Source of the DNA: an uncultured Thermogutta sp.
GTDB lineage: Bacteria > Planctomycetota > Planctomycetia > Pirellulales > Thermoguttaceae
NCBI GenBank assembly: GCA_937128505.1
Contig: CAKZMM010000035.1
Coordinates: 1 to 64,000 of the forward strand
DNA length: 64,000 nt
Direction: 5' to 3'
The notes beneath the pieces were generated by a model, which had not been told where the DNA came from, searched no databases, and saw only the letters and a list, made by a program, of their open reading frames with translations. A program made the position numbers and the translations under genes. This document shows positions 13,458 to 54,550 of the stretch, one piece after another. Positions within the stretch are counted from its first letter, which is position 1. Each line of letters opens with the position of its first letter.

Positions 13458-14756
13458 CTTCCCTCCTTGCCATGGGCAGCTTACGGGTCGCGATTTGCCA
13501 TTGCAGGACCGGCTCCGGCTCTGCCGAACCTCGTCCAGGCCCCGGTGCGACCGGGTCAAAGCTTCAGCATACCCCACCGCCAAGGGGACAAGCGTTGGAC
13601 TTTCCTTATGATTTCAAAAACTCCGGATCCCAAAACATCGACTTGATCGCGAATTAAGAAGGCTAGGTGTAACCAAAAAAGAGAGGGCGGAAATTCGCGG
13701 GTTTTTTATCCTTTCAAAGAGTTATTTTTTTCGAACAGATTGGTGGTAGCTGGAAGCGTAATTCCCCTTTCAGCCGGTCGCTATTCCCCGTTAAGCCCGC
13801 AGGCAGACTTGTACGAGAGGGTAATCAATACCCGGGCGATTGGATTAATCAATACTCATGCAATAAGGAATAAGCTTCATCGCATGATACTTACAAGAAA
13901 TTTATAATTTCGAATTCTGAAGCAGCACGTCATTTAAGTTGACGCGGGCGCCGGATCCTCTCGACAGCTTCAAACAATCTTAATGCACGACCAATATCGT
14001 AATCTAAGTTACAATTCGATGATTCTTTGCGGGCCGAGTAACCATATTTGCCGGTAAAAGCTCTTCGATGCGAAAGGTCACCTTAAACCGAAAATCCGCG
14101 TTTCTAAAAATCGGCGAATTTGGGCAGAAGGTTGAAGACACTTTTAAAAAGGCTGAAGACGCGTCAAGTGTGTACAGTTCTCAAACGGACGTTCGACGAG
14201 GGGCTCACGCATTTTTTTTGGCAAGGATGGAGACACACGTTACAAAGCTTTTTTTGGTAGAGCAAAACTTTTTAGGCTTGCGCACGCTACGACTAGACGC
14301 GCACCTGCCGGAACACGCACAAGCTTTAGTAACTTTTGTATTCCGGTGACCAATTTCGACGCCTAACCTCCGCCATCTCAGGAGTTTCCGCGACAAGTTA
14401 ACCAGTTAAATGTTCACCCCAGGGATGATCCGTGGGACTACAGAATGCGCATACTGAGGAACTTAGTAAGTATGGATAATTAAAGGAAAAGTCGTGGAGG
14501 TTGCATTTGCACTAAGCCCGCTGAAAAGAAACCAGAAACCCCTCTTTCGATAAGGAATCAGGTTAAAGTTCAAGCGGAATGCGCCCAGAATGGCTGCATG
14601 CGAAACAAAAGTAGCGTCCCAAAGATGGAGAACAAGGACGGAGAATTAGAGGAGAATTAGAACATAAATCAAACGATGATTTCAGGCTTTTTCGCGGCTT
14701 ACCGCCATTAGCGGAGATAATTCACCTTGCTCACTCAAGCCGGCATCTTGCGTGGC
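13458..14756. other. 1.3-kb gap, nothing certain
   Basis: The gap lies between thioredoxin and the coiled-coil gene on the minus strand. A 93-codon plus-strand frame (14068-14349) has no ribosome binding site or motif and is not called. GGAGAATTAGA is tandemly duplicated at 14640-14661. Base composition is more AT-rich than in the genes. Confidence 0.4.
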
Positions 14757-15089: not shown

Positions 15090-15830
15090 GTCGAACCTCA
15101 ATTGTACATCAACTTGATAACCTGCTTGTCGAACGAAACTTGGTAATGTAAACCTCGTGCAAGTATCGTTGAGAGGATTACGGGCTCTGAAATTAGCGCC
15201 CCACCGCTACTCCATACTGCCGAGACTCTACGCGCTAAAGTAAACGAATACCTTTTTCTTTGTTTCCAGTACGGCCCATCGCTCCGGGTCTTGATACTCA
15301 CAAGCGGGGCGAACTTCAGCAAAAAAGTCAGCTTTCCCACCGGGCCACGCACCCACGACGCCTTAGTTGCCAATATTCTATCGAGTTGGGAACACTTCAA
15401 TAGGGGGAGCGGAACGGCACGATCAAGTTTCTGGAACCATTGCCTCACTTTCAGATGGTAATCTCGGAAGATCCTTCTCCCCAGCAAGCACATAACCCGC
15501 TTGGAGATCTTGGGGATTACACAAGAAGCAACGTTGTTTGCAAACTCTCGTAACCGTCAAACGCATCGAGAAGCCGTGAGGACTGATCGCGGTAGCACGC
15601 CTTTCGACAGGCTTTTGTTGGCCACGAGACGATCAGATGCTTTTGCCCCGGGTATAGCGAAGGGGAAAAACGACTGCCACCGTCCTATTTCCCCGGGTAG
15701 TATTTACCCCTGCGTTCGATCGTAAGGCGTGCAGACTCCCTTGATTGCTACTGATTGCTACGCCACGAGATACTTGCCCCTGCCCCAACTGCAAGATGGG
15801 GGGTGCTGCCGACCAAAACGTTCACGTTCT
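15090..15830. other. gap between kinase and thioredoxin genes
   Basis: No gene is supported. A 131-codon minus-strand frame ends at the thioredoxin start (15098-15493) but shows no known motif. TGATTGCTAC is tandemly repeated at 15742-15761. The thioredoxin promoter should be within the first 200 bases above 15089; no clear -35/-10 pair was identified. Confidence 0.4.
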
Positions 15831-17348: not shown

Positions 17349-18596
17349 TCCTCGATGCCTCCTCCGCTCTTAAAACAAGAGCTATATCAGTAATAAGAGC
17401 TTTATGAGTAAAGAATCAACGTGTTCCTGCAACTCAGTAATCTTTGGCTTGTGGTGCTAAAACCTTTGATGCGTGGCGCTCCAATGGCTCAAATAGCCAA
17501 TCCATCGCCCCGCACCGCGAATAAACCCAAATCCTACGAATGCATCTTGCCACTACCAGCCCCAGATGACCATTAAGCCGATTATGGTAAAGTCTTTCGT
17601 GGATCGCGGCTCTGCAAGCAATCCGCGCTCATGCCCTTCAAATGAACACGAGTCAACGGTCCCTGTTTGATTCCTTACAAAATAGCTAACGCTCCACCAG
17701 TAAAATCTTTAGAGGAAACCGCGAATTTAAGTTCGTAAAACCTCATCCCACCATACTAACTTCGACAAACCAGCCAGGCAACCGGCCGGCGCTGACATCA
17801 CCGGGCGGTTTCTCCGCAGAGATCCAAACTAGATCCAAATGGGTCAAAACTCAGCGTCTTCACAAGTTACCCCGGGTTTGGGAAAGTTGATTCCTTGTGA
17901 TTGCCGGAGTTTAAGTTATTCCTCTTCAGTGTCGACTCCGGTGTTGACGGTTTTTTCAGGAATCCACCCGGGGGTGGCCGTTTTTTTCCCAATTGGGCAG
18001 GTAGGTTTCCAGCTGGGTAGGTAGACAGCTGGGGAATACCCTCTGCCAAGGCAAGAAAATGTGCTGGTCTCGGAAATCATCGGAAATCAAAGGATTGTAG
18101 GTAGATGGGTGGTGAATCCCTTAGGCCCGAACCCCCAGAGCTAAACTCCAGTTGGAGGTGGAGTGTCGGCGGGGGGAGCTAGCCCGGAAGCTTCGATAAG
18201 GCATTTGGAACTTCTAAGACAATCGGGGCGGTCGTTTGCGGAAGTTATCCGCGGTTGGGGTTTTCTTGCGAAAAATGTGGATTCTTCAACCCCAGGTTGC
18301 AATCGCGGCGAAGCAAATCGCTTCTATATAACGCGTTGATTAACCCGGCCCGCTGAGTCTCCGCTTCCAAAAAATCCTTCAACGTAGCGAAGATTGGCAG
18401 CGGACGTAAAAACTTAGTTGGCCCCGAATGACTGGACGACAATTAAATTGATTGAAAATTAAATTGATTGAAAATTGATTGAAATTGATTGAAGGACACG
18501 GACGGATTAAGTAATGTGTCGGAGACTACTCCGAACACGTGTGGCTGACTGTAGGGGTCGGCCTAGAGAACCAACCTTTCTGGCGAGCCCGGTGCC
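17349..18596. other. 1.25-kb gap with short duplications
   Basis: No gene is supported. CGGAAATCAT/CGGAAATCAA is a 10-base doublet near 18075. At 18441-18493 AATTAAATTGATTGAA is repeated twice in tandem and then shortened copies follow. An intrinsic-terminator-like hairpin at 17964-17987 is annotated separately. Confidence 0.45.
17964..17987 (+). terminator. orphan intrinsic-terminator-like hairpin
   Basis: CCACC (17964-17968) pairs with GGTGG (17973-17977) across a CGGG tetraloop, followed after three bases by seven Ts (17981-17987). This is a plausible Rho-independent terminator reading rightward. There is no plus-strand gene upstream for more than 10 kb, so it may end a small RNA or be accidental. 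Confidence 0.4.
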
Positions 18597-22300: not shown

Positions 22301-23128
22301 CGGAACCACATCGTCCAGGCCGAAGTTTATTTGCAGCGCGCCGGCACCGCACTGCAAGCCTGGCAATACGCGGAAGCATGGGCAGAGGCTAACCGCGCCC
22401 TCCGACTGATTCGCACAGTAGAACACGATTGGTGGCAATCGGTTGCGACATCTTTGGGTACACCGGTCGCTCATCCCCTGGCGGTGAGCTTTTCAACAGC
22501 AGCCTGGTGTCGGGAATCACTAAGCCGCTTGGCCACCGGATCGTGGAGCGAGGAGCTTTTACCGGGCGGGGATTGTGAAGACTTGGGACTGATGCTCCAG
22601 CTCGGTTGGAGGCATTTCCAAAACCCACATGAACCTGCTGCGGTCCTTGCCGCACTGAGTCCGGAGGCAGCCCACTCGGGAAGGTTTGGGCTCGAAATCC
22701 GCGTCGAACCTAGACCCGGTGAGCGTGAATACGGAGTACTGGAATCGATACCCGCCTGGGTCTTAACCCCCTCGGTACCCGTCGAAGCTGGCGACTGGGT
22801 GTGTGTTCAGGTGTGGGTGAATATCCCGGAGCCTTTGCGGAGTTCCGTGGACGGTTTCATCGTGGCTGAGAGCCTCGGGGGAATGCCGCTGGCTGCACGC
22901 TGGACGAAGAGCGACGGGTGGCAGTTGATCCGGTTGTACCGCGTTGTACCGCCGAACCGACGCCTGGAAATCGCCCTGGGTGTGGCGGGTTACGGCAGGG
23001 TAATGCTCGACGAGATATCGGTACGGCGACTTTCTTCGGCCGCCTTTCCCGGTGTCGTCCCCGATTGGAGCCAATCAGCTTTCTCACGGGGACCATCCGA
23101 TTTTTCCCGCGAACCATCCAACAATTGA
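19319..23128 (+). CDS. large membrane-anchored protein with possible TIM-barrel domain
   Basis: This 1269-residue protein is not recognised by name. A strong hydrophobic segment (ATPILLFIVVIIFIWWL, about 52-70) anchors it, probably with the rest outside. Residues about 85-250 look like a beta-sandwich. About 250-520 are low-complexity, rich in Ser, Pro, His and Gln and probably disordered. About 525-830 contain strand/helix alternation with GVNGIWIDSPYPAEL and FWVVLPPVFPP, resembling the early strands of a glycoside-hydrolase TIM barrel. The C-terminal 170 residues end in a carbohydrate-binding-like beta-sandwich (WTKSDGWQLIRLY, GRVMLDEISVRRL). Function inferred as extracytoplasmic glycan binding or processing, with low confidence; no catalytic acid pair could be assigned. 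The GTG start has no good ribosome binding site; an internal GTG (residue 20) is an alternative. Its last 139 bases overlap the convergent thioesterase gene. Confidence 0.75.
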   Translation: MGKAFQTAEKTPYIRLRFSVTNSARIQTARHRGRIVIPAIYPELEFRSARSATPILLFIVVIIFIWWLNAVSSWSVKASPLEDYSTPRNYSSAERSPLSRISRWRVEEGNPSSSIKVLEPTNDQLLPDRTTQLFQLAAKKPSQVSLVYPIPPLRVINELKVKVWVKSDQPGAILQLRIILPEARHPETGKPLETFLLFQEYRRPNRWEELIAEDVARKLRQQLFVLRAKFGSSVELRGAVVDQVMVRVYVAQAPQTIIVGAPQIEGAVHDSEVVVSSFQGPQPLSSVSSFSARQPGVHLGHPVAIPSHPHAGPSSLAHPGSHHRNDSERRHQAVRSEEFGAGAHRSVLGERSAVISAGYIEAPESYSPEQMLQSDISLFEDSDPKPDLPTRNESNLNYEESSPQADGPRHKGIGRSSEGPDTRAEQHSQSEKHLGGQEMAQAATTTAGTGTQPDFLHWAIDSFQEVGTANQDTGASAPPGQRRASYESPSPVTPRAPFHMPIAWAEQSGQPSSPTRMVGSSLMVGNRPMFPRLLAWRGESVSSLRQLGVNGIWIDSPYPAELLPQAREHDFWVVLPPVFPPVGDTHMSDSTADGFEAASIRGRIASSPHREPAMGVTTAYTFAEVAKFPPEFPAGTRTGSQLIQPMAFFASDPAVQSPGVWPQYPGDYSRVLGWVLPGDARRESLDQARLIADHLRGGSWPVPAPLVCRSIEATHDYSRIADILLLERPLLGGNLELESWSQWLRGRSFLARPGTPFWAAIPVDYPPQLLEQIHFCSVLPESTPVPTWEQVRLAAFQALSAEIRGLVFTASARLDSPDRSAEIQRCILELINLELQLIEPFLAGGTFVGQTGPTESLPVKWGMYRTERARLLMPVWVERCSQWVCPAASAFQLPLVIAGVPESYNAYLIVPGAIRPLRHRRVAGGIEVMLDEFTVAGLVLLTQDPLIMGALNARASELGPRTVSLLIRHARDRLSQLAAYQRFFAGPGVPESWQRNHIVQAEVYLQRAGTALQAWQYAEAWAEANRALRLIRTVEHDWWQSVATSLGTPVAHPLAVSFSTAAWCRESLSRLATGSWSEELLPGGDCEDLGLMLQLGWRHFQNPHEPAAVLAALSPEAAHSGRFGLEIRVEPRPGEREYGVLESIPAWVLTPSVPVEAGDWVCVQVWVNIPEPLRSSVDGFIVAESLGGMPLAARWTKSDGWQLIRLYRVVPPNRRLEIALGVAGYGRVMLDEISVRRLSSAAFPGVVPDWSQSAFSRGPSDFSREPSNN

Positions 23129-23541: not shown

Positions 23542-24155
23542 GGAACGACCTTTTACTCACGAACATTTGGCCGATCGAAGTGAAACTCCCGCGCAGGCCG
23601 ATGAACCGGTACAAACGCTAAAGTTTGCGAAGGTTTCCTAACTATCCTCTGCCTCAGCGTTGAATAACCAGATTATACCGGAGTCGACGGGGTTGAAAGG
23701 GAGATCGAGAGACGATTGAAACTGATTCCAAGCACGCTTGAAATCGCCGTAGGATTCTAGGACACCGGAACATTGAATCAGTAGCGAGCGCGGCAACAAG
23801 TTGCAATCAAGGCCGGGGTTGAACCCGTGCCGATCGACATGCCCTATCGAAGATATCGGGATGTCCTATCCAAGGAAACCGAACGATTCGATCCCGAGAT
23901 GAATTCGAGAATTCGACACTTTTCGTTACAACCTTTGGTTGCAATCCCTTACTCCTCCGCCAAGGTTGCAAGAATCCAGAACGACAATCTTCCGAATGAA
24001 AAAAACTAACGTCATCCCCGTTTTCGTGGCAAGCCCCGGAACTCCCCCTGTGCGGGGCTGCGCGCCTTGCCTTTCCAGTTTCCAATACTACCGATCGACC
24101 GACGCATACGACCGATCGACTAGCGCACATCCCTAGCGCACATTCATGCACATCC
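23542..24155. other. gap between glgP and thioesterase genes
   Basis: No gene is supported. The thioesterase promoter should lie near its right boundary at 23542. Near the left boundary are a hairpin (24032-24059) and a 23-base tandem duplication that runs into glgP; both are annotated separately. Confidence 0.45.
24032..24059 (-). terminator. glgP: possible glgP terminator hairpin
   Basis: AGCCCCG (24032-24038) pairs with CGGGGCT (24053-24059) about 100 bases past the glgP stop on the minus strand. A T-run follows on that strand only after 27 bases, so it is weaker than a classical intrinsic terminator. Confidence 0.35.
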
Positions 24156-24170
24156 CTAGCGCACATTCAT
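24125..24170. repeat. perfect 23-base tandem duplication across the glgP stop codon
   Basis: Bases 24125-24147 and 24148-24170 are identical. The glgP stop codon (24156-24158) lies in the right-hand copy, and the last codons (MNVR then stop) are therefore present twice, the second time beyond the stop. The duplication does not change the protein. Confidence 0.95.
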
Positions 24171-26970: not shown

Positions 26971-27006
26971 ATTTGACGCGAAAGACGAATTTGACGCGAA
27001 AGACGA
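26971..27006. repeat. perfect 18-base tandem doublet
   Basis: ATTTGACGCGAAAGACGA occurs twice without a gap (26971-26988 and 26989-27006). It is intergenic and not related in sequence to the other repeats in the window. Confidence 0.95.
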
Positions 27007-27365: not shown

Positions 27366-27448
27366 CCCCCACCTACCTCGGGGGAAATATGACCCGGAGA
27401 AGGGTTTGAAACTGCTGGAAGGCCATCCCCCACCTACCTCGGGGGAAA
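27366..27448. repeat. duplicated hairpin repeat, 61 bases apart
   Basis: A 22-base sequence is present identically at 27366-27387 and 27427-27448. Each copy has CCCCC, the 9-base loop ACCTACCTC, then GGGGG and AAA, so it can fold into a five-pair GC stem. The 39 bases between copies are unique. The geometry recalls a two-repeat CRISPR, but the repeat is short and there are no cas genes. Confidence 0.85.
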
Positions 27449-27558: not shown

Positions 27559-27594
27559 TGTGAAGATGTTTATTCTTGTGAAGATGTTTATTCT
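27559..27594. repeat. perfect 18-base tandem doublet
   Basis: TGTGAAGATGTTTATTCT occurs twice without a gap (27559-27576 and 27577-27594), in the same gap as the 26971 doublet but unrelated in sequence. Confidence 0.95.
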
Positions 27595-29241: not shown

Positions 29242-29688
29242 TCCGGTGCATCTTTTGCCCAATTGGTGTGCAAAAGTCTAGGTTTTCCCAGGGTGCTTTA
29301 GAGTGTGCCGGATATAACCGGATATAAGCAGCGAAAGATCGAAAAAATTCGGGTCCGAAGAGCTTCAAGCTCAAAATTCTCTGGCATAGGATTTGCGGGC
29401 CCGTTCCCGTGCCATGTAGCCTGGGGAGGTTTGACTTTTCCAGAATTATTGGCGAAACTTGCTGTTATAAAAGAAATCCTCAAACGACCGGACAAAGCTT
29501 GCATAGGCTCCGGTGTCCGACGAAAAGCCAAGGTGCGAGTCAAAAGTAATTTGGTGACGACCTTCGGCCGAAAAAGCTCGCGTCGGAAACGGGCGGGAAA
29601 TTTCCCCGGCCCTCAGTGGCAAGGTGAATGGGCCGATTAACGATTTAGTCGGCGGTGACCGTTATAAGGACTTGGTCGGCGGAATCCA
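29242..29688. other. gap between sialidase-like gene and nifU
   Basis: No gene is supported; a 111-codon GTG-start frame at 29305-29640 is basic and motif-free. CCGGATATAA is duplicated at 29310-29330. A hairpin at 29252-29276 may end the upstream transcript. Confidence 0.4.
29252..29276 (+). terminator. possible terminator after the sialidase-like gene
   Basis: CTTTTGC (29252-29258) pairs with GCAAAAG (29270-29276) 11 bases past the stop codon. The following bases are TCTAGGTTTT, only a weak T-run. Confidence 0.35.
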
Positions 29689-30720: not shown

Positions 30721-30792
30721 GCCAAATTTTCGTTCCAGCCCGGCACGGAATGAGGGCGGTCAAACTTGAGGAGTTTTTTCCGGTTGCCGTTC

Positions 30793-30953
30793 GGATGATT
30801 CAACGTTGATCGGACGATTCAAAAGTTTTCGGATGACCCAAAGATTTGGGATGATCCAAAAACGTTCGAATGATTAATAATTGATCAGATGGTCCATAAT
30901 TTCTGGATGGTCCAAAAATGATCGGACATCCTTAAAAAATATATGAACGATGT
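30793..30953. repeat. degenerate array of eight to nine 18-19-base units
   Basis: Units aligned on the consensus GGATGATCCAAAAA start at 30793, 30812, 30831, 30849, 30868, 30887, 30905 and 30924, with a weaker ninth at 30945. Spacing is 18 or 19 throughout (21 to the last). The core GGAYGRTYC is kept while the A/T-rich part varies. No open frame uses the array. It lies between nifU and the downstream terminator. Confidence 0.85.
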
Positions 30954-32407: not shown

Positions 32408-32950
32408 TTGCCGGAAACTTTACGAAAATTTCGCCAAACTGAGCTTCATTTTCCACTTCCGTCGCCCGGGAACCTTATCCAAGCGATGAGGAGTAATCTT
32501 GCAGCTTTGGGGAGGTTACCAGAGCGCTATGATGATTTTTCCGCGGTGCCTTTGTGGTCGATGGAATTTGAAGCAATGCTCCCAGGAAACTCTCACGAAG
32601 CGCTTGCGAACCTTTTAGCCCTGAAGAAAAAATCAAAGGGAAGGATAGAAAGGAAGGATAAATGTACCGCGCAAGGTCTGTAAATATCGGTCGGAAGGTA
32701 ATCGCACTGTGAAAACACTGGCTTAAAGACGCAGGAAAAGAGCGCATTGAAGAGACTCGCAGAGGCAAACACGAAAACTTGTCCGGCTCCCCGCGAGACT
32801 AGCTCGAAAAAAGGGTTTTCGGGTTGTGCGGCTTTTGGCTTAGCCAGGCAGTGACGGATAGGTAACCAATCACTCGATTCTCGCTACGTGCCCTCCGCTT
32901 GAGATGTGATCTAAAGCGTGTTCGGAGAAATCAAAGGAATTCCCGTTCCC
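32408..32950. other. gap after nifS, nothing recognised
   Basis: A 91-codon frame begins with TTG right after the nifS stop, but it lacks a ribosome binding site and known motif. No terminator or repeat was found. Confidence 0.4.
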
Positions 32951-34261
32951 ATGCGAGGTTCAAAGAAAATGCCACAAGCAGTATGGATTCTGGTCCCGGG
33001 CACGATTGATCCGCGTAGTAGTCAATCTGTTCCGCGGAGCGAGGGTTCTCGTTCGTTTGCGTGCCCCAGAGGCAACGGGTTTTTTTGTGGACAATGGCTC
33101 ATTTCGCTCCTTTTGGGCTTGGTGAATTGGTTCACGGGATCAGCGATTCTTTGCGCCGAAAATCCGGCGGTTGTGCCTGGGGAAAATATTAAAGTGCTTC
33201 GCGTTTACATCGGGACTTACACGACGGGAGAAAGCCGCGGGATTTACACCGCGCAAGTAGACCTCGATCGAGCCACTCTGAGTGAGCCGGTTTTGGCAGC
33301 ACAGTTGCGTAACCCATCTTTTTTGGCGATCCATCCGACCAAGCCCGTGCTGTACGCGGTAGGAGAGATGGCCGATTTCCAGGGAAAACGCATGGGTGCC
33401 GTCACCGCCTTAGCGATCGAGCGGCCAGCGGGCACACTGCGGCTTTTGAATCAGCAGCCGTCGGGTGGAGCTGGGCCATGCCACTTGTGTGTGGATAGTT
33501 CTGGTGAGTTTGTGGTTGTGGCTAATTATGGGGCAGGAAGTACCGCATGTTTTCCGCTGGCTCCTGACGGTTCATTGAAGCCGGCTTCCGCGATCGTTCA
33601 GCACCAAGGTTTCAGCGTTCATCCCACTCGGCAGAAGGGACCGCATGCACATCAGGTCAGAATGCCGCCTGGCAAAGACCTCGTTCTTGTGCCGGATTTG
33701 GGTTTGGACAAAGTGATGTTGTATCATCTGGACAAGGAGAAAGGGGAGCTTCGGGCGGCGAATCCGCCGAGCGTTTCGCTGCCGCCGGGCTCGGGCCCCC
33801 GCCATTTGGCCTTTGGACCCGGTGGTAAATTTCTGTATGTGCTCAACGAACTCAGTTCGTCGATTAGCGTATTTGCATGCCGGGACTGGATTCCCTTGAA
33901 GTTGGTGCAAACAGTCTCGGCGTTGCCCGCGGATTTTCCTGGAGATAACACTGGGGCTGAAGTGGTGGTGCATCCCTCCGGTAGGTTTTTGTATAGTTCT
34001 AATCGCGGTCATGACAGTATTGCAATCTTCTCGATCGACCAAGCCAACGGCACCTTGACCTTGCGGGGTCATGTACCCAGTGGGGGCAGAACACCGCGAA
34101 ATTTCAACATCGATCCCTCCGGCACCCTGCTGATTTCTGCAAATCAAAACTCAAACAACATCCTCGTGTATCGAATTGATCAGACCACCGGAGAACTTAC
34201 GCCTTCCGGTTCAGAAATCAAGGTGGGTGCCCCGGTGTGCATCATCTTCGCAAAATTTTGA
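32951..34261 (+). CDS. exported lactonase-type beta-propeller protein
   Basis: The protein matches the seven-bladed lactonase family (PF10282), which includes cytosolic 6-phosphogluconolactonase of the YbhE type. Landmarks include VYIGTYTTGESRGIYTAQVDLDRATLSEP, PSFLAIHPTKPVLYAVGE, GGAGPCHLCVDSSGEFVVVANYG, PHAHQVRMPPGKDLVLVPDLGLDKV, GPRHLAFGPGGKFLYVLNELSSSISVF and TPRNFNIDPSGTLLISANQNSNNILVY. A hydrophobic stretch (WLISLLLGLVNWFTGSAIL) precedes the propeller, so this copy is probably exported or anchored, unlike the cytosolic enzyme; substrate is then uncertain. Three starts are possible: GTG 32918, ATG 32951 (AAAGGA 12 bases upstream) and ATG 32969 (GAGG 10 bases upstream). I use 32951. Confidence 0.88.
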   Translation: MRGSKKMPQAVWILVPGTIDPRSSQSVPRSEGSRSFACPRGNGFFCGQWLISLLLGLVNWFTGSAILCAENPAVVPGENIKVLRVYIGTYTTGESRGIYTAQVDLDRATLSEPVLAAQLRNPSFLAIHPTKPVLYAVGEMADFQGKRMGAVTALAIERPAGTLRLLNQQPSGGAGPCHLCVDSSGEFVVVANYGAGSTACFPLAPDGSLKPASAIVQHQGFSVHPTRQKGPHAHQVRMPPGKDLVLVPDLGLDKVMLYHLDKEKGELRAANPPSVSLPPGSGPRHLAFGPGGKFLYVLNELSSSISVFACRDWIPLKLVQTVSALPADFPGDNTGAEVVVHPSGRFLYSSNRGHDSIAIFSIDQANGTLTLRGHVPSGGRTPRNFNIDPSGTLLISANQNSNNILVYRIDQTTGELTPSGSEIKVGAPVCIIFAKF

Positions 34262-34946
34262 TGTGCCGAACCGATAGATCATTTCGACTTGCTCGGCATA
34301 GTAGGGTTGACATCACGTTACGAAAAGCGGATTTCAATAGACGGTTTGCAGCTTTCGCACCTTGCGATACGGCTTCGAGGCTTACAATCGTAAGCACCGG
34401 GTGAGCATTTGGAAGTTTCGACGGATGGCGAAATCTTCTGGCCCTCCACTGTGCAACCATGTTTCACGAGAGTGAGATTTCCGACGGGGGGCTATTTGTG
34501 CACGCCAAACGGGCTTTCGCGTGCACCTGGAAGGAGCCTTGAAGCGCGGTTGAAGCAGTAAGAGGAGGTATGAATGGAATTTAGGGGCGGGAACCTCCTG
34601 AAAAATCAAGTTTCTTCTCGCACATGACCTTCGAACTCAGATGATCTTTGAACTTAGATGCCTTCGAATTCAGATGACCTGCGAATTCAGATGACCTGCG
34701 AACTGCAGTGATCTTCGGACCGAGAGGGTCTTCGCAACCGGGCGATCTTCGGACGGTGAAAATCCTCGAACGGTTTCGGCTTGTTAGGGCGTTACCACCT
34801 TACTAGGAAGGATGCAAAAAGACGCGGGTCATTAGCCCGCAGATCCAAAAAAGTTGCTTCTTGAATCGAAAATCGGTCGGTAAAGGGCGAAGAAACCGGA
34901 ATAGACACCGATCATGAAATCCAATGCACATCGGAGGAACCTTTGG
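34262..34946. other. gap with nine-unit 17-base array
   Basis: No gene is supported. The array at 34624-34775 is annotated separately. The bases after it lead into the ribosome binding site of the substrate-binding lipoprotein. Confidence 0.5.
34624..34775. repeat. degenerate array of nine 17-base units
   Basis: Units start at 34624, 34641, 34658, 34674, 34691, 34708, 34725, 34742 and 34759, a strict 17-base phase with one 16. The first is ATGACCTTCGAACTCAG; all keep a core close to YCTTCGAA, which is nearly palindromic. Divergence rises toward the right end. It is noncoding and lies 170 bases before the substrate-binding lipoprotein gene. Confidence 0.88.
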
Positions 34947-36002
34947 ATGCTGGCCCGGAAAGCTCTGGTTAGAAAAAACAATCGGTGCGTATTTGCCGGC
35001 TTCGTTTTGATGATCACAGCGGTTTGGATTGCAGGATGTTATCACCCGGAACAAGGGCCCCCACGCGGCGCGGGGCACGGCGGAAATACGCGCTCATTAC
35101 CCGGGGTCTCCTCGCAAGCGGGCGCACAATCGGGACCCGCAAGCGCCGAGCGCACGTATGTAATCGGGATGAGTCAGTGCAACCTCGGTGAGCCCTGGCG
35201 GGTGCAAATGAATGCCGACATCAGGGCAGCTGCGGAAACACACCCGAATTTGGAGGTCATTTTCAAAGATGCACAAAACGATACTCTTCGTCAACGGACA
35301 CACGTCGAAGAGTTCATTAGCGCTAAGGTGGATCTCATTATTATCAGTCCGAAGGAAGCGCAGCCGTTGACCGAACCCGTGGCCCGGGCCTATCAGGCAG
35401 GTATCCCTGTGATTGTTTTAGACCGTGCCGTTTTGGGAGACCAGTACACGTGCTTCATCGGCGCCGACAACAAGAAAATCGGTTATGCCGCGGGAAAGTG
35501 GTTGGTTGAAAAACTCGGGGGCCGGGGCAAGGTCGTTGAACTGATGGGGTTGATGACCTCCACTCCGGGGCAGGACCGGCATACGGGGTTTCGCGAGGCG
35601 ATTGCCCGAAGTGAAATCGAGGTGATTTTCGAGGCGGATATGAAGTGGTTGGGACCGAATGCCCGACGGGAAATGGAATCCGCTTTGGCGAGATTTGACA
35701 AGATCGATGCCGTGTACGCGCACAATGATCCTGCTGCCCACGGTGCTTATTTGGCCGCAAGAGCAGTGGGGCGCGAGAAGGAGATGCTCTTTGTCGGAAT
35801 CGACGCATTACCCCATGAAGGCGTCGCATACGTCAGGCAGGGCATCCTCAGTGCTACCTTTCAATATCCCACAGGTGGCGCCGAGGCAATCGATATCGCG
35901 TTGAAAATCCTGCGGGGGGAAAGGGTTCCCAAAAAAATCGTGCTCGGATCCCGGGTATTTACCGTAGAAAATGTCGATCGTGGCGGAGATCCCATCGAAT
36001 AA
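34947..36002 (+). CDS. sugar-type ABC substrate-binding lipoprotein
   Basis: This is a periplasmic binding protein of the ribose/galactose type (Peripla_BP_4). The signal peptide ends in a lipobox (WIAGC), so the mature protein is lipid-anchored. The core shows the family landmarks: IGMSQCNLGEPWRVQMNADI, VDLIIISPKEAQPLTEPV, GIPVIVLDRA, CFIGADNKKIGYAAGKWL, DRHTGFREAI, DAVYAHNDPAAHGAY, and FVGIDALPHEGVAYV. No ATPase or permease gene is next to it, so its transporter is elsewhere or it serves as a sensor. The start is the ATG at 34947, with GGAGG nine bases upstream; an ATG 11 codons earlier lacks one. Ligand unknown. Confidence 0.9.
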   Translation: MLARKALVRKNNRCVFAGFVLMITAVWIAGCYHPEQGPPRGAGHGGNTRSLPGVSSQAGAQSGPASAERTYVIGMSQCNLGEPWRVQMNADIRAAAETHPNLEVIFKDAQNDTLRQRTHVEEFISAKVDLIIISPKEAQPLTEPVARAYQAGIPVIVLDRAVLGDQYTCFIGADNKKIGYAAGKWLVEKLGGRGKVVELMGLMTSTPGQDRHTGFREAIARSEIEVIFEADMKWLGPNARREMESALARFDKIDAVYAHNDPAAHGAYLAARAVGREKEMLFVGIDALPHEGVAYVRQGILSATFQYPTGGAEAIDIALKILRGERVPKKIVLGSRVFTVENVDRGGDPIE

Positions 36003-36684
36003 CGGAGCGGACTTGAAATTACCGCGCGAATTTCACGCGATCTACGGCGGATGAGATCTTCCAGGAAGAAGCCCCTTTTCCGCAATTTCTTGGGGGTTCG
36101 GCGTCATCCGTCCCAGTGCGCATCCGCGCGGAAATCTCCCTTCGGTCAGTCGCGGCTCGCAAATTCAACCGTCAAACGTCGTGGGAAGTTCGGCCACGAA
36201 GATCTGGCCATGCCCTGCGAATTTCTGCAAAAAGTCCGATTTTCCCTCTCCCCTCTATGCAACGTCAACCGCTCGAAAACCGCACCGTTACCCCGCGCCG
36301 GGTCGCGCCGTTTTAGGGCGATCGGCTGCCAACAATTTGCCCTCACGTCGGCGAATTACCCTTTGCAAAGATCGCGAAGGGGCCCCGCGTCTCCACTTGC
36401 ACAAACCAATCATTGCATCGCCCGCAGTAACGCAACGGCTTCGGCTTCAGCGAGCTAATCTTATTCGGCGTTCGAATCTTATTCGGCCCTGGAATCTTAT
36501 TACCCTCCATGCAACGGTCTTTCGGATGCGGAACAGCGCCGGTAGTTTCGCCATTTTCGCCACAAGTTGCTTTTTAGGTGCCTAGTGACTAATCGCTTCG
36601 GCCCCGGTGTTGTAAACTTGTAACAAACTCGGAAAATGGAGCCGCCAAGGGTAGGTCCGACAGATTTCAAAACGGAGGTGGCGA
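36003..36684. other. gap with an 18-base triplet repeat
   Basis: Open frames here are short and motif-free. AATCTTATTCGG-type units occur three times at 36455-36508. The promoter of the alanine dehydrogenase gene should lie near the right end. Confidence 0.45.
36455..36508. repeat. three 18-base tandem units
   Basis: Units start at 36455, 36473 and 36491: AATCTTATTCGGCGTTCG, AATCTTATTCGGCCCTGG, AATCTTATTACCCTCCAT. The left half is conserved and the right half varies. Confidence 0.88.
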
Positions 36685-39530: not shown

Positions 39531-39927
39531 TTGTCCCCTCGTAAGCCTTGCTTATAGCCCGAGCGTCACGTGTCTCTTGTTCGTGCGTGGGGCTTTCCCC
39601 TCGAAAGCCTCGCTGGTCGGCCGTAGCAAAGACGCTGACACTCCGGTGAATTGAGGAGCGTGATGTGAGATGACGGCAGGGGGGAAAACTTTTTGCTATG
39701 TTAACGGTGGGAGACCTCGGGCACTTCTATAGCGAGCAGAGAATGATAGCTTCTAACAACGGCGGCAAGCATTGGCCGTTCCGCGCTGGGAAGCGTTAAT
39801 GCCGGGGGCTATATCGAGCGCGATAGCCCATCTTATTTTCTCCTCTTATTTTCTCCGAATCCGGGCAGATCATTCCCGGGCTGAAAGGTTGTTGGTATTT
39901 CAGCAACGTGGTACCACCTTCACACTG
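39531..39927. other. gap between convergent mtnA and DUF2520 genes
   Basis: No gene is seen. TCTTATTTTCTCC is duplicated in tandem at 39831-39856. No clear terminator was found for either gene. Confidence 0.4.
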
Positions 39928-50971: not shown

Positions 50972-53281
50972 TACTACAATCCTCACGATAAAGCAAATCG
51001 AACCGTATTGATTACTGACCGCAATGGGCAAATAAAATGTCGTTCTCTATTTTCCAAAAGTATGGAGCCGAGTCTTCTTCCAAATCGTCTTCGCCAGAAA
51101 CGCTCGTGAAACCCCCGAACACCGTAAGATCGCTTAACGCAAAAAGATCAAACTACTTATCTAAAAACCGGACGTTTCATTTGTTACAATCTCGGCTTTT
51201 TCTTTCGGCCCAGCCAAGAAGCCCATTTGGGATAATCCGCAGCGAAACACACTCGGTGGTGCCGTGATCACCCCCACCGTTCTCCAGTGGAGTGAGTATT
51301 TAAAAATTTGGTAACGCCGAGAGAGATCATCTCACCTCGAACTCGACCCGTTCGTCCCCAGAGATTCACACCCCCAAGTGGCATGCCCCCAGTTTGGCTA
51401 AACCCAAATAAAGCTGAGCTTCCTTCAGTACAAAACCGGCTAAATAAATTTTCGCCTAACATGTGATCTGGCTTTCCCAAACCCACTCTTGAAACGCCGA
51501 TTTTCCCGATACCTCCAAATACTCTTTCTAAAAATGTCGATCCAAAAATTTCATCCTACTTTGACAATCACTTTTCCTCATGCCGGGCGGGATCCCGGAG
51601 ACTATGGAATTGCCAGGTTAATGAGCTAACTAACCGCGGGGGTTCAAATCCCCGCAAAGTTCTCAGATTTCTCCCAAATTTTTGGCCCTTTCCGATTGTC
51701 TTTTTGACCTCGCTCTTCAGCCCTTCATGATCCGAAAAGCTATCACCAAAAAAGCTAATGCCGATTTAAATAAGCTAATGTAAATATCGGATTTTCGATT
51801 TATTCTATTCTCTAATTTTACCCGGGTCTACGTAGAACCGAGGTTTTTACCAGACTGTGCCGAAAAATGCAACGTGCGACACGCATGCAAGTTTGGTCGC
51901 GACCGGAACTAACTATTAGGAGATGCAATTAAAGAATTAAATGATCCTCTATGATAGATTAGCGAAAACTTATTTCGTTGCCGTTCTCCAATAGTCTCAT
52001 CGAGATGGACATTTCCGGCCGTCTAACCCAGCTAAGGGGCTGCGGCGCTTGTGGGTTTCAGACGTTTGCGGTAGGATTTCCTCTGGCCACGCAAACGCGG
52101 TGCATTTGTACCCGGACTGAAACATGAATCGGTAAACGAAACCGGGGGTTGCACACGCTGGTGGTTTAGCCAGCATCCCGAGGCGTGAAATCAAAGAATA
52201 AAAAAGAAATAGAAAAGATATTTCTCGGCAAAAGGCCGTTGAGCTTCCAGATTCTTTAACGATCGTTGGAGGGATTCACCGGTTTCTGGCGATCTTGCCG
52301 ATAAATAAGTTATAATTGCGTAAGATTTGGAACTTACCCAGTAGCAGTTGGAGCTTAGGCGGTAGCCGTTAGTAAAAGCTGGGTTATCAAGATTAAGTGA
52401 ATATCGAAGAAAAGATCAGCCCTCTGCGGTGTTCGTGTTGTCGACGTTCAAGTATCCGGGTAGTCAACACTTTTAACCAGGAGTGTGGGCAAATTCGAAG
52501 TGCGTTCGAATACGAATGAACCCGCTTGTGCCGGCTTTGACTGGCGGCGGGATCGTTTCGATTCGGGCCCCCCGCACATTTTTGGCTTTAGGGCTCCCGG
52601 GACGAAGTCGCCACGGCATGCGTTGGAGGGCTGACTTTTTTTCGCGAAACCCGGTTTTTCGCAAATTGTCGTAGCTTGCTGCGCAGAAAAACGCCGACGC
52701 ATCCGCGATTTCTTGCCGGCATCACACCGCAATCGCAAATACCCATTCCGGAGATTAAGATTTACTTATCTTTCGCCACCTCCTCAGCAAGTCGGATTAC
52801 TCGTTGACCTTCGCACCATCTCTGGCCCGAACCCATGGTGTAAAGGTCGTGCCCCACGATGCTATTCGCTTAAGCGAGTTATGCGACGGTTCCATCAACC
52901 CGCAAATCAACCGGCCCACGCGCAGTAAACCTAGTGGAAACATTACACCCGCGGTATTTATTTTCTCCGCGATTATGCTAATTTTCTCGACTTTTCTCGA
53001 CAATTCCGACGTTCATGTGCGAACGCCAAAATTGTTTGACTTTCGCCTTCTTCTCTGAAACCATTTAGCGCAAACTTACCGCCAACCTCATAAGGCGAAG
53101 TCCGGGGGGTTTGAAAAAAAGGTGGGCCCACGAGGCCTTAGGTTAATTGTGGATAGTCGTGCTATTCACTAGTCGTTATCCCGCCCAAAACCGAAGGGCT
53201 TCTGCAAAGTTGAAGGGGAATTTCTAAGAGGTTTAGCAGTCCAAGATCACTTTAATGGGAGAGAATCTCAAAGGGTGCATC
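50972..53281. other. 2.3-kb gene desert
   Basis: This is the largest gap in the window, between divergent gltB and larE. No protein gene is supported. It holds a three-hairpin tRNA-like element (51583-51655), three 21-base imperfect repeats (TTGGARCTTA... at about 52327-52368) and a GTGGGCCCAC palindrome at 53122-53131. The promoter of gltB should lie in the left end. Confidence 0.45.
51583..51655 (+). ncRNA. three adjacent hairpins, the last like a tRNA T-arm
   Basis: CCGGG/CCCGG (51583-51587 with 51594-51598), GGTTA/TAACC (51616-51620 with 51631-51635) and GCGGG/CCCGC (51636-51640 with 51651-51655) are perfect stems. The last two are directly adjacent. The third loop is GGTTCAAATC, matching the tRNA T-loop core GGTTCAANTC, although the stem register is off by one base. 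No acceptor stem pairs around it, and the 3' end is not CCA. It could be a tRNA remnant or an unrelated small structured RNA. Confidence 0.35.
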
Positions 53282-54169: not shown

Positions 54170-54550
54170 GAAACCCCAAGGGACCCGGTAGAGGCACAGA
54201 AGATGTAACACTGGGGCAGCGGTACGACGGCCCCCTCGGGCAAAGCAGGGGCAAGATGACTTTCCATGATGAAATGGACGATTTCCATGATGAAATGGAC
54301 GAGCGGGCTGTCGGGTCGGATTACGAGTCGACATATCCAAGGGGCAACACGACTTCACATGATCAGATCGACGAGCGGCAAATTTAAACCTTTTTGAGCT
54401 TTACAGGCTCGCTTCTTCCCGCTTCGTGCTGACCAATCCTCGGAAAAGATGTTCTCCGAAGTCTTCCCGCATTTTCGGGTGTGCCAAGTAAGGAGTCTGA
54501 TCTTTAAGACGTGTGATTTTCTACCGGCATAGTCGCCCATGCTTTACGTC
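54170..54550. other. gap with a perfect 21-base doublet
   Basis: The gap lies between convergent larE and the second kinase gene. Bases 54261-54281 and 54282-54302 are identical. A weak 5-pair hairpin occurs near 54440. No gene is seen. Confidence 0.5.
54261..54302. repeat. perfect 21-base tandem doublet
   Basis: Two identical 21-base copies sit head to tail, each containing TTTCCATGATGAAATGGACG plus A. TCCAT and ATGGA inside the unit are themselves inverted, so each unit can fold. Confidence 0.95.

Follow-up and report, generated by a model that had tools for sequence, protein, structure and literature searches.

A degenerate 17-bp tandem array in a Thermogutta genome probably grew within a genome-wide burst of short duplications with topoisomerase I-like edges

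RESULTS

The array lies between two genes that are not neighbours in two relatives from the same genus

The stretch of DNA analysed here (the window) comprises 64,000 nucleotides of contig CAKZMM010000035.1, part of contig 35 of a draft genome of an uncultured Thermogutta sp. (GCA_937128505.1; 5.58 Mb in 198 contigs). A 652-bp gap between a gene for a lactonase-family protein and a gene for a substrate-binding protein houses an array of nine degenerate units of ~17 bp, which we refer to as the focal array (Table 1). In G001 and G002, two relatives from the same genus, the homologues of the genes neighbouring the array are located on other contigs and the gene order is not shared. The substrate-binding orthologue trails an ABC permease gene there after a short gap, and no array precedes it. 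In the present genome the substrate-binding gene is separated from the permease; the sole permease match is found on another contig (L262), where it is followed by a gene that we take to be ribokinase-like.

Table 1. Coordinates of the features in the window (m, extension of a duplication in bp)
Feature	Position	Strand	Remarks
Lactonase family seven-bladed propeller protein gene	32918..34261	+	upstream of the focal array
Focal array, nine degenerate ~17-bp units	34624..34776	.	TRF, shift-17 self-match
Exact 17-bp square within the focal array, m=4	34665..34702	.	
Periplasmic substrate-binding protein gene, Pfam Peripla_BP_4	34914..36002	+	downstream of the focal array; putative lipoprotein with a putative sugar specificity
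Region of a second degenerate array (period 18-19), unit unlike that of the focal array	30789..30923	.	three TRF rows
Degenerate 18-bp x 2.5 array, different unit	36457..36501	.	far side of the substrate-binding gene
Exact 10-bp x 2 duplication, m=0	15742..15761		C at -4 on + strand, both edges
Exact 13-bp x 2 duplication, m=0	39831..39856		C at -4 on + strand, both edges
Exact 10-bp x 2 duplication, m=0	52982..53001		C at -4 on + strand, both edges
Exact 10-bp x 2 duplication, m=0	18070..18089		G at +3, both edges (= C at -4 on - strand)
Exact 10-bp x 2 duplication, m=0	29308..29327		G at +3, both edges (= C at -4 on - strand)
Exact 18-bp x 2 duplication, m=0	27559..27594		fits same-strand and opposite-strand pair alike
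Exact 10-bp x 2 duplication, m=0	22933..22952		pair on opposite strands only, counter to the strand preference
Exact 18-bp x 2 duplication, m=0	26971..27006		1/4 edge letters
Exact 11-bp x 2 duplication, m=0	14640..14661		1/4 edge letters
Exact 23-bp x 2 duplication, m=0	24125..24170		1/4 edge letters
Exact 21-bp x 2 duplication, m=0	54261..54302		1/4 edge letters

The focal array bears the marks of local growth

An earlier, sequence-only reading of this DNA had described nine units that start every 17 bases with a single exception of 16 and that end at 34775. The array is real and far above chance, with two small corrections: the unit lengths are, from left to right, 17, 17, 16, 17, 18, 17, 17, 17 and 17 bp, i.e. 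there is one unit of 18 bp besides the one of 16, and the ninth unit ends one base further to the right. Self-match over 34624-34790 was 0.57 at a shift of 17. At the remaining shifts between 5 and 59 it was 0.14-0.35, save for shifts 33, 34, 50 and 51 (0.37-0.43), which sit close to multiples of 17. Over periods 10-30, the focal array is also the best 120-base self-match of the window (75/120), while the best value in 40 random sequences of equal dinucleotide make-up was 56. TRF reported a period of 17 with a score of 109 for the first 94 bases (34624-34717, five to six units); it stopped at 34717 because the last units are too decayed to be recognized by the program.

The decay runs in one direction. 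Deviations from the consensus along the array, from left to right, number 1, 2, 3, 3, 2, 4, 6, 6 and 7 (Spearman 0.92). Adjacent units are more similar to each other than under shuffled order (p = 0.018) and the distance between units rises with their separation (p = 0.011). The focal array is thus a minisatellite both in its form (head-to-tail units in the range of ~9-100 bp, at least two copies) and in its unit-by-unit growth history.

The same reading had emphasized a near-palindromic, CTTCGAA-like core that is kept in spite of strong divergence. The core is indeed the most conserved stretch of the unit, but its conservation relative to the rest reached only p = 0.063 when window lengths of 5-9 and all positions were allowed (single lengths of 5-8 gave p = 0.029-0.22, with p = 0.029 for seven columns), exact CTTCGAA is present in just two units (34629 and 34662), and the window as a whole shows no enrichment of the heptamer (11 occurrences versus 15.5 expected). 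The core may be under weak constraint. Its palindromic character is unremarkable, as 23 of the 113 consensuses with a period of 14-20 among the arrays of the sampled genome contained a 6-bp palindrome, and so do 23% of random 17-mers. Nor is it surprising that the phase survived while the sequence decayed: 48 of 61 diverged arrays (those with a match of at most 90% and at least 2.5 copies, counted in the first 662 kb sampled) contained at most 5% indels.

A second copy of the focal array was not found, as BLAST of 34600-34800 against the genome returned only the query region itself. A paired-core pattern had nine matches in the genome, two of them inside the focal array and seven scattered, and the reversed control pattern had four. 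Between 34200 and 35000 we detected no promoter-like site (0.5 expected) and one terminator-like site on the minus strand (0.8 expected). No Rfam match was obtained in this interval at E values up to 1, and an RNA element was therefore rejected as the identity of the region.

We read the focal array as a product of local growth because of the gradient of divergence, the likeness of neighbouring units, the non-significant conservation of the core and the lack of a second copy. Very probably, it is one locally grown tandem repeat of a burst that affected this whole genome.

Short tandem duplications are in excess in this genome and have private units

The focal array has company in the window, where TRF detected 31 arrays with a score of at least 40 (overlaps merged). 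Two degenerate arrays with different units flank it, one on each side and less than 4 kb away (30789-30923 and 36457-36501). By eye we also noticed a 22-base direct repeat, CCCCCACCTACCTCGGGGGAAA, which is present twice at 27366-27448, 61 bases apart, has inverted C/G ends and differs from the short arrays.

We then compared the density of arrays with that in other genomes. All genome-wide counts come from 1.05 of the 5.58 Mb, consisting of a first sample of 662 kb and 386 kb more; two wholly masked stretches (4.8 kb together) were left out of later length counts, and the gene calls rest on a simple rule that takes the longest frame. TRF found 274 arrays in the 662 kb, which corresponds to 41.4 per 100 kb. 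The densities were 9.0 and 6.0 in G001 and G002 and 9.0 and 10.5 in G026 and G041 (200 kb each), 21.2 in 13 further relatives pooled, and 17.1 in 80 other loci, which include G001, G002 and other family members and are therefore not a fully separate control. Stretches of some relatives, such as G034 and G012, had TRF array densities near that of the present genome. For exact duplications with a unit of at least 10 bp, there were 10.9 per 100 kb here versus 1.0 in G001, 1.0 in G002, 0.5 in G026 and 2.0 in G041, 1.9 in the 80 loci, and 4.5 in the pool of 13 relatives, where two G034 stretches (L220 and L221) supplied 10 of the 25 cases. By chance, ~0.2 exact duplications per 100 kb are expected for units of at least 9 bp.

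The units are private to their sites. Among 204 arrays with a consensus of at least 14 bp there was one matching pair (same length, at least 80%), in a comparison that covered equal-length units only, and this single pair lay at two contig ends. Array density was 0.98 per kb between divergent genes, 1.20 between convergent genes and 1.09 between codirectional genes. Intervals between convergent genes, in which a promoter is not to be expected, have an equal density, so the arrays do not follow promoters.

Genes are largely spared. The density of exact duplications was 31.7 per 100 kb in intergenic DNA and 2.0 per 100 kb in genes (an about sixteen-fold difference). The unit length was divisible by three in 11 of the 14 exact duplications in genes compared to 44 of the 107 between genes (p = 0.010, eight duplications straddling a gene end being left out), and in 51 of 83 TRF arrays in genes compared to 69 of 169 between them (p = 0.003). 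As they are rarer in genes and mostly keep the reading frame there, the exact duplications of this genome are natural.

Fresh duplications have little microhomology and a C at position -4 of their edges

Our set of fresh duplications consisted of 129 exact two-copy duplications in the 1.05 Mb with a unit of at least 9 bp (mostly 9-27 bp). The match did not extend beyond the unit at all in 67 of them and extended by one base in 29, so that 96/129 had an extension of 0-1 bp and slippage at repeats already in place need not be invoked. In being independent of repeats, the genome-wide set behaves as expected of topoisomerase I-linked duplication.

The 67 extension-free duplications were scored for a signature, a C at -4 from the edge or a G at +3, which is its equivalent on the other strand. 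It was first seen on inspecting 39 edge columns in the discovery stretches, and the test was fixed in writing before the additional 386 kb were fetched. In the discovery stretches (43 extension-free duplications), C at -4 was present outside the left edge in 22 cases and G at +3 outside the right edge also in 22, and the matching letters inside the unit were present in 20 and 16. In the unseen stretches (n = 24) we counted 38 signature matches versus 21.3 at shifted pseudo-edges, a number reached there once in 4000. Taken singly in the unseen stretches (n = 25, as one contig-end duplication was counted here that is left out of n = 24), the four letters gave p = 0.014, 0.0024, 0.19 and 0.13, the last two, from the right edge, being not significant.

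When all 67 duplications were pooled, there were 118 matches compared to 59.6 at shifted pseudo-edges (maximum of 4000, 84). The signature is confined to offset 4: the count outside the unit was 65 there versus 26-36 at the other eleven offsets, and the count inside was 53 versus 14-31. The swapped letters were depleted at the edges (25 versus 60.7). None of the four edge letters was present in 6/67 duplications. Genome-wide, the duplications thus have edges like those of cleavage sites with a C at -4; the founding edges of the focal array itself are unreadable.

Older and shorter repeats were also scored. Decayed duplications (n = 86) had a weaker signature (114 versus 83.9, z = 3.8), units of 7-8 bp showed it weakly, and in units of 5-6 bp it was absent, as expected were such units chance matches. 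No signature was seen in the small set of duplications from the relatives (n = 25, stretches of 17 genomes, z = 0.45) or in the small set from the 80 other loci (n = 17, z = 0.72). We tried G034, a member of the same family, as a second case of the edge pattern and rejected it, as all of its nine two-copy exact duplications had extensions of 1-8 bp and none was unambiguous; the duplications of G034 look as if they stem from another process.

The two edges of a duplication are preferentially marked on the same strand

Pairs of C on the same strand were found in 34/67 extension-free duplications and pairs on opposite strands in 18/67. The permutation p value of the same-strand preference was 0.0003 for the pooled set and 0.0005 for the discovery stretches; in the unseen stretches alone the preference was not significant (9 versus 7, p = 0.25). 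In the window, 6 of the 11 extension-free duplications have a same-strand pair and two have an opposite-strand pair (one of these fits both), and none lacks all four letters.

The same-strand model was the best of nine that were fitted with background rates set by hand. Its log-likelihood was -174.1. The model of independent edges reached -180.3 and that of opposite strands -191.2, and the opposite-strand models as a group spanned -191 to -199. As the fitted site strength was 0.68 and six duplications are letterless, other routes may add cases. A held-out class was provided by the duplications of all stretches with an extension of 1-3 bp, and hence with ambiguous edges (n = 45), which had been unused in discovery. 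Here, 23 same-strand pairs were observed versus a mean of 8.2 and a maximum of 14 over 38 shifts, while opposite-strand pairs numbered 10 versus a mean of 6.8 and a maximum of 14.

Topoisomerase I and DNA polymerase I have matches in this genome and Ku has none

The genome contains one match to type IA topoisomerase, an open frame of 913 aa. One gene for this enzyme was likewise present in each of seven other genomes tested, G001 and G002 included. Ku, the prerequisite of Ku-dependent end joining, had no match in the present genome (G000), in G001 or in G002, and 10 of 60 genomes had one. Within this family 36/37 genomes were without a Ku match, and matches were present in 9/23 genomes from the other families of the order.

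Loss of DNA polymerase I was rejected as the cause, as both of its domains were matched in this genome; the 5'-3' exonuclease domain was matched in 13/13 genomes and the polymerase domain in 11/13. A phage-like contig of the same genome, L206, has a match to a divergent second family A DNA polymerase, and no tandem repeat of the first sample scored higher than one on this contig. Its genes presumably include thymidylate synthase-like, deaminase-like and pentapeptide-repeat-like ones.

DISCUSSION

A same-strand double cut by topoisomerase I as a possible origin of the duplications

Topoisomerase I and reverse gyrase are described as favouring a C at -4 of the cut (PMC7587558), and an E. coli topA mutant, R168C, is reported to produce de novo tandem duplications of 2-19 bp that are independent of repeats (PMC6954433; the mutant is also mentioned in PMC8546631). 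The letter preference at the edges makes topoisomerase I the most likely candidate for the duplicating enzyme. We propose that the focal array started when a short piece of intergenic DNA without repeats was duplicated head to tail, in one event of a burst in this species. Topoisomerase I (type IA) would make two cuts in a single strand, both at CNNN^ sites and some 9-27 nt from each other, and the 3'-OH from the right-hand site would be rejoined to the 5'-phosphotyrosine end at the left-hand site. In this way the intervening stretch would be copied with no need for sequence homology. The 3'-OH would have to be on a second copy of the strand, which we infer to be either the newly extended or the sister strand. 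Cleavage on the same strand followed by wrong rejoining would explain the homology-free edges, the broad range of unit lengths and the strand pattern. An altered or misregulated enzyme would explain why this species is affected and its genus relatives, which likewise have one such gene, are not.

The two-copy products would then enlarge unit by unit through ordinary slippage or recombination. In the focal array, which we regard as neutral, the older units would now be on the right and would have decayed by substitution. This comes close to the second option of the sequence-only reading, a young array that has only had time for substitutions. Because its founding edges have been overwritten, the birth of the focal array is assigned by its membership in the burst. 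The account as a whole, a member of the burst that was founded by a topoisomerase I duplication and grew locally, appears to us reasonably probable. For the broader proposition, that a natural bacterium has passed through a topoisomerase I duplication-mutator history across its genome, with same-strand CNNN^ double cuts 9-27 nt apart that were misjoined, we see about an even chance.

Other origins of the duplications and of the focal array

The signature identifies a cut preference and not an enzyme, so another nuclease, a recombinase or a mobile element with the same preference for C at -4 could be the maker. We consider this doubtful, given that the published preference of topoisomerase I matches (PMC7587558) and that a topoisomerase I mutant gives like events in E. 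coli (PMC6954433). The breadth of unit lengths (9-27 bp) is, in addition, unlike fixed target-site duplications.

Replication slippage is the usual explanation of bacterial minisatellites. It (or recombination) most likely drives the later growth of the arrays, the focal array included. That ordinary slippage at short repeats also founded the duplications, with no special enzyme, is unlikely: 67 of the 129 fresh duplications are extension-free and a further 29 have a single extra base, slippage does not predict a C(-4) signature at offset 4, and neither G001 nor G002 shows the excess.

Staggered nicks on opposite strands, followed by fill-in and homology-free end joining as in plants and mammals, would likewise yield tandem duplications largely devoid of microhomology, and a mammalian route of this kind has been described at breaks with complementary overhangs (PMC8355091). 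This origin is still less likely here, because the opposite-strand models fit worse than the same-strand model, the opposite-strand pairs of the held-out class stayed within the shifted controls, and no Ku was found.

The sequence-only reading had offered, as the first of two options, a run of binding sites for one protein, and we weighed the version in which one regulator of the downstream gene binds the focal array and TTCGAA-like cores are under selection. The hexamer is palindromic, the most conserved stretch coincides with the core, and the array is upstream of a transporter-type gene. We nevertheless regard this explanation as very improbable. Neighbouring units resemble each other along a gradient of divergence, two arrays of the same style with other units are found within 4 kb, the genome searches turned up no further array of this kind, and no array precedes the orthologues in G001 and G002. 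The core conservation falls short of significance, 23% of random 17-mers contain a 6-bp palindrome, and arrays are equally dense between convergent genes.

An assembly or sequencing artefact, which a draft in 198 contigs might invite, is scarcely credible in view of the scarcity and frame-keeping of duplications in genes, the many decayed copies and the sequence-specific edges.

Relation to known systems and significance

The duplications most resemble those of the E. coli topA R168C mutator, which are also short, head-to-tail and independent of repeats (2-19 bp, in galK). R168C is a laboratory point mutant whose duplications, as its report states (PMC6954433), have no common motif and no high similarity to known cleavage sites, whereas here a natural genome contains 129 exact two-copy cases in 1.05 Mb, with units of mostly 9-27 bp, a C at -4 of the edges and a preference for one strand. 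Tandem arrays as such are familiar from a survey of bacterial satellites (PMC6749651), which counted 29 satellites in the planctomycete Rhodopirellula baltica; in its account most prokaryotes have few, while the present genome has dense low-copy arrays with private units, far above its two same-genus relatives. In the anammox planctomycete Kuenenia, 260 short tandem repeats were detected by TRF in one genome, with settings that differ from ours, so that the counts are not comparable, and the part of the paper that reports them gives no edge signature or mechanism (PMC5854607). Duplications at mammalian break sites are similarly small and largely without microhomology in wild-type cells, but they arise by end joining of staggered breaks (PMC8355091), unlike here, where no Ku was found and the edges pair on the same strand.

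The origin of tandem repeats from unrepeated DNA was called unknown by the topA study (PMC6954433). If our account is true, de novo tandem repeats in bacteria would gain the motif that they have lacked, together with a same-strand mechanism. A genome rich in fresh, sharp-edged events makes the birth of tandem repeats directly testable, and in such a genome a regular array in front of a gene is no evidence of regulation.
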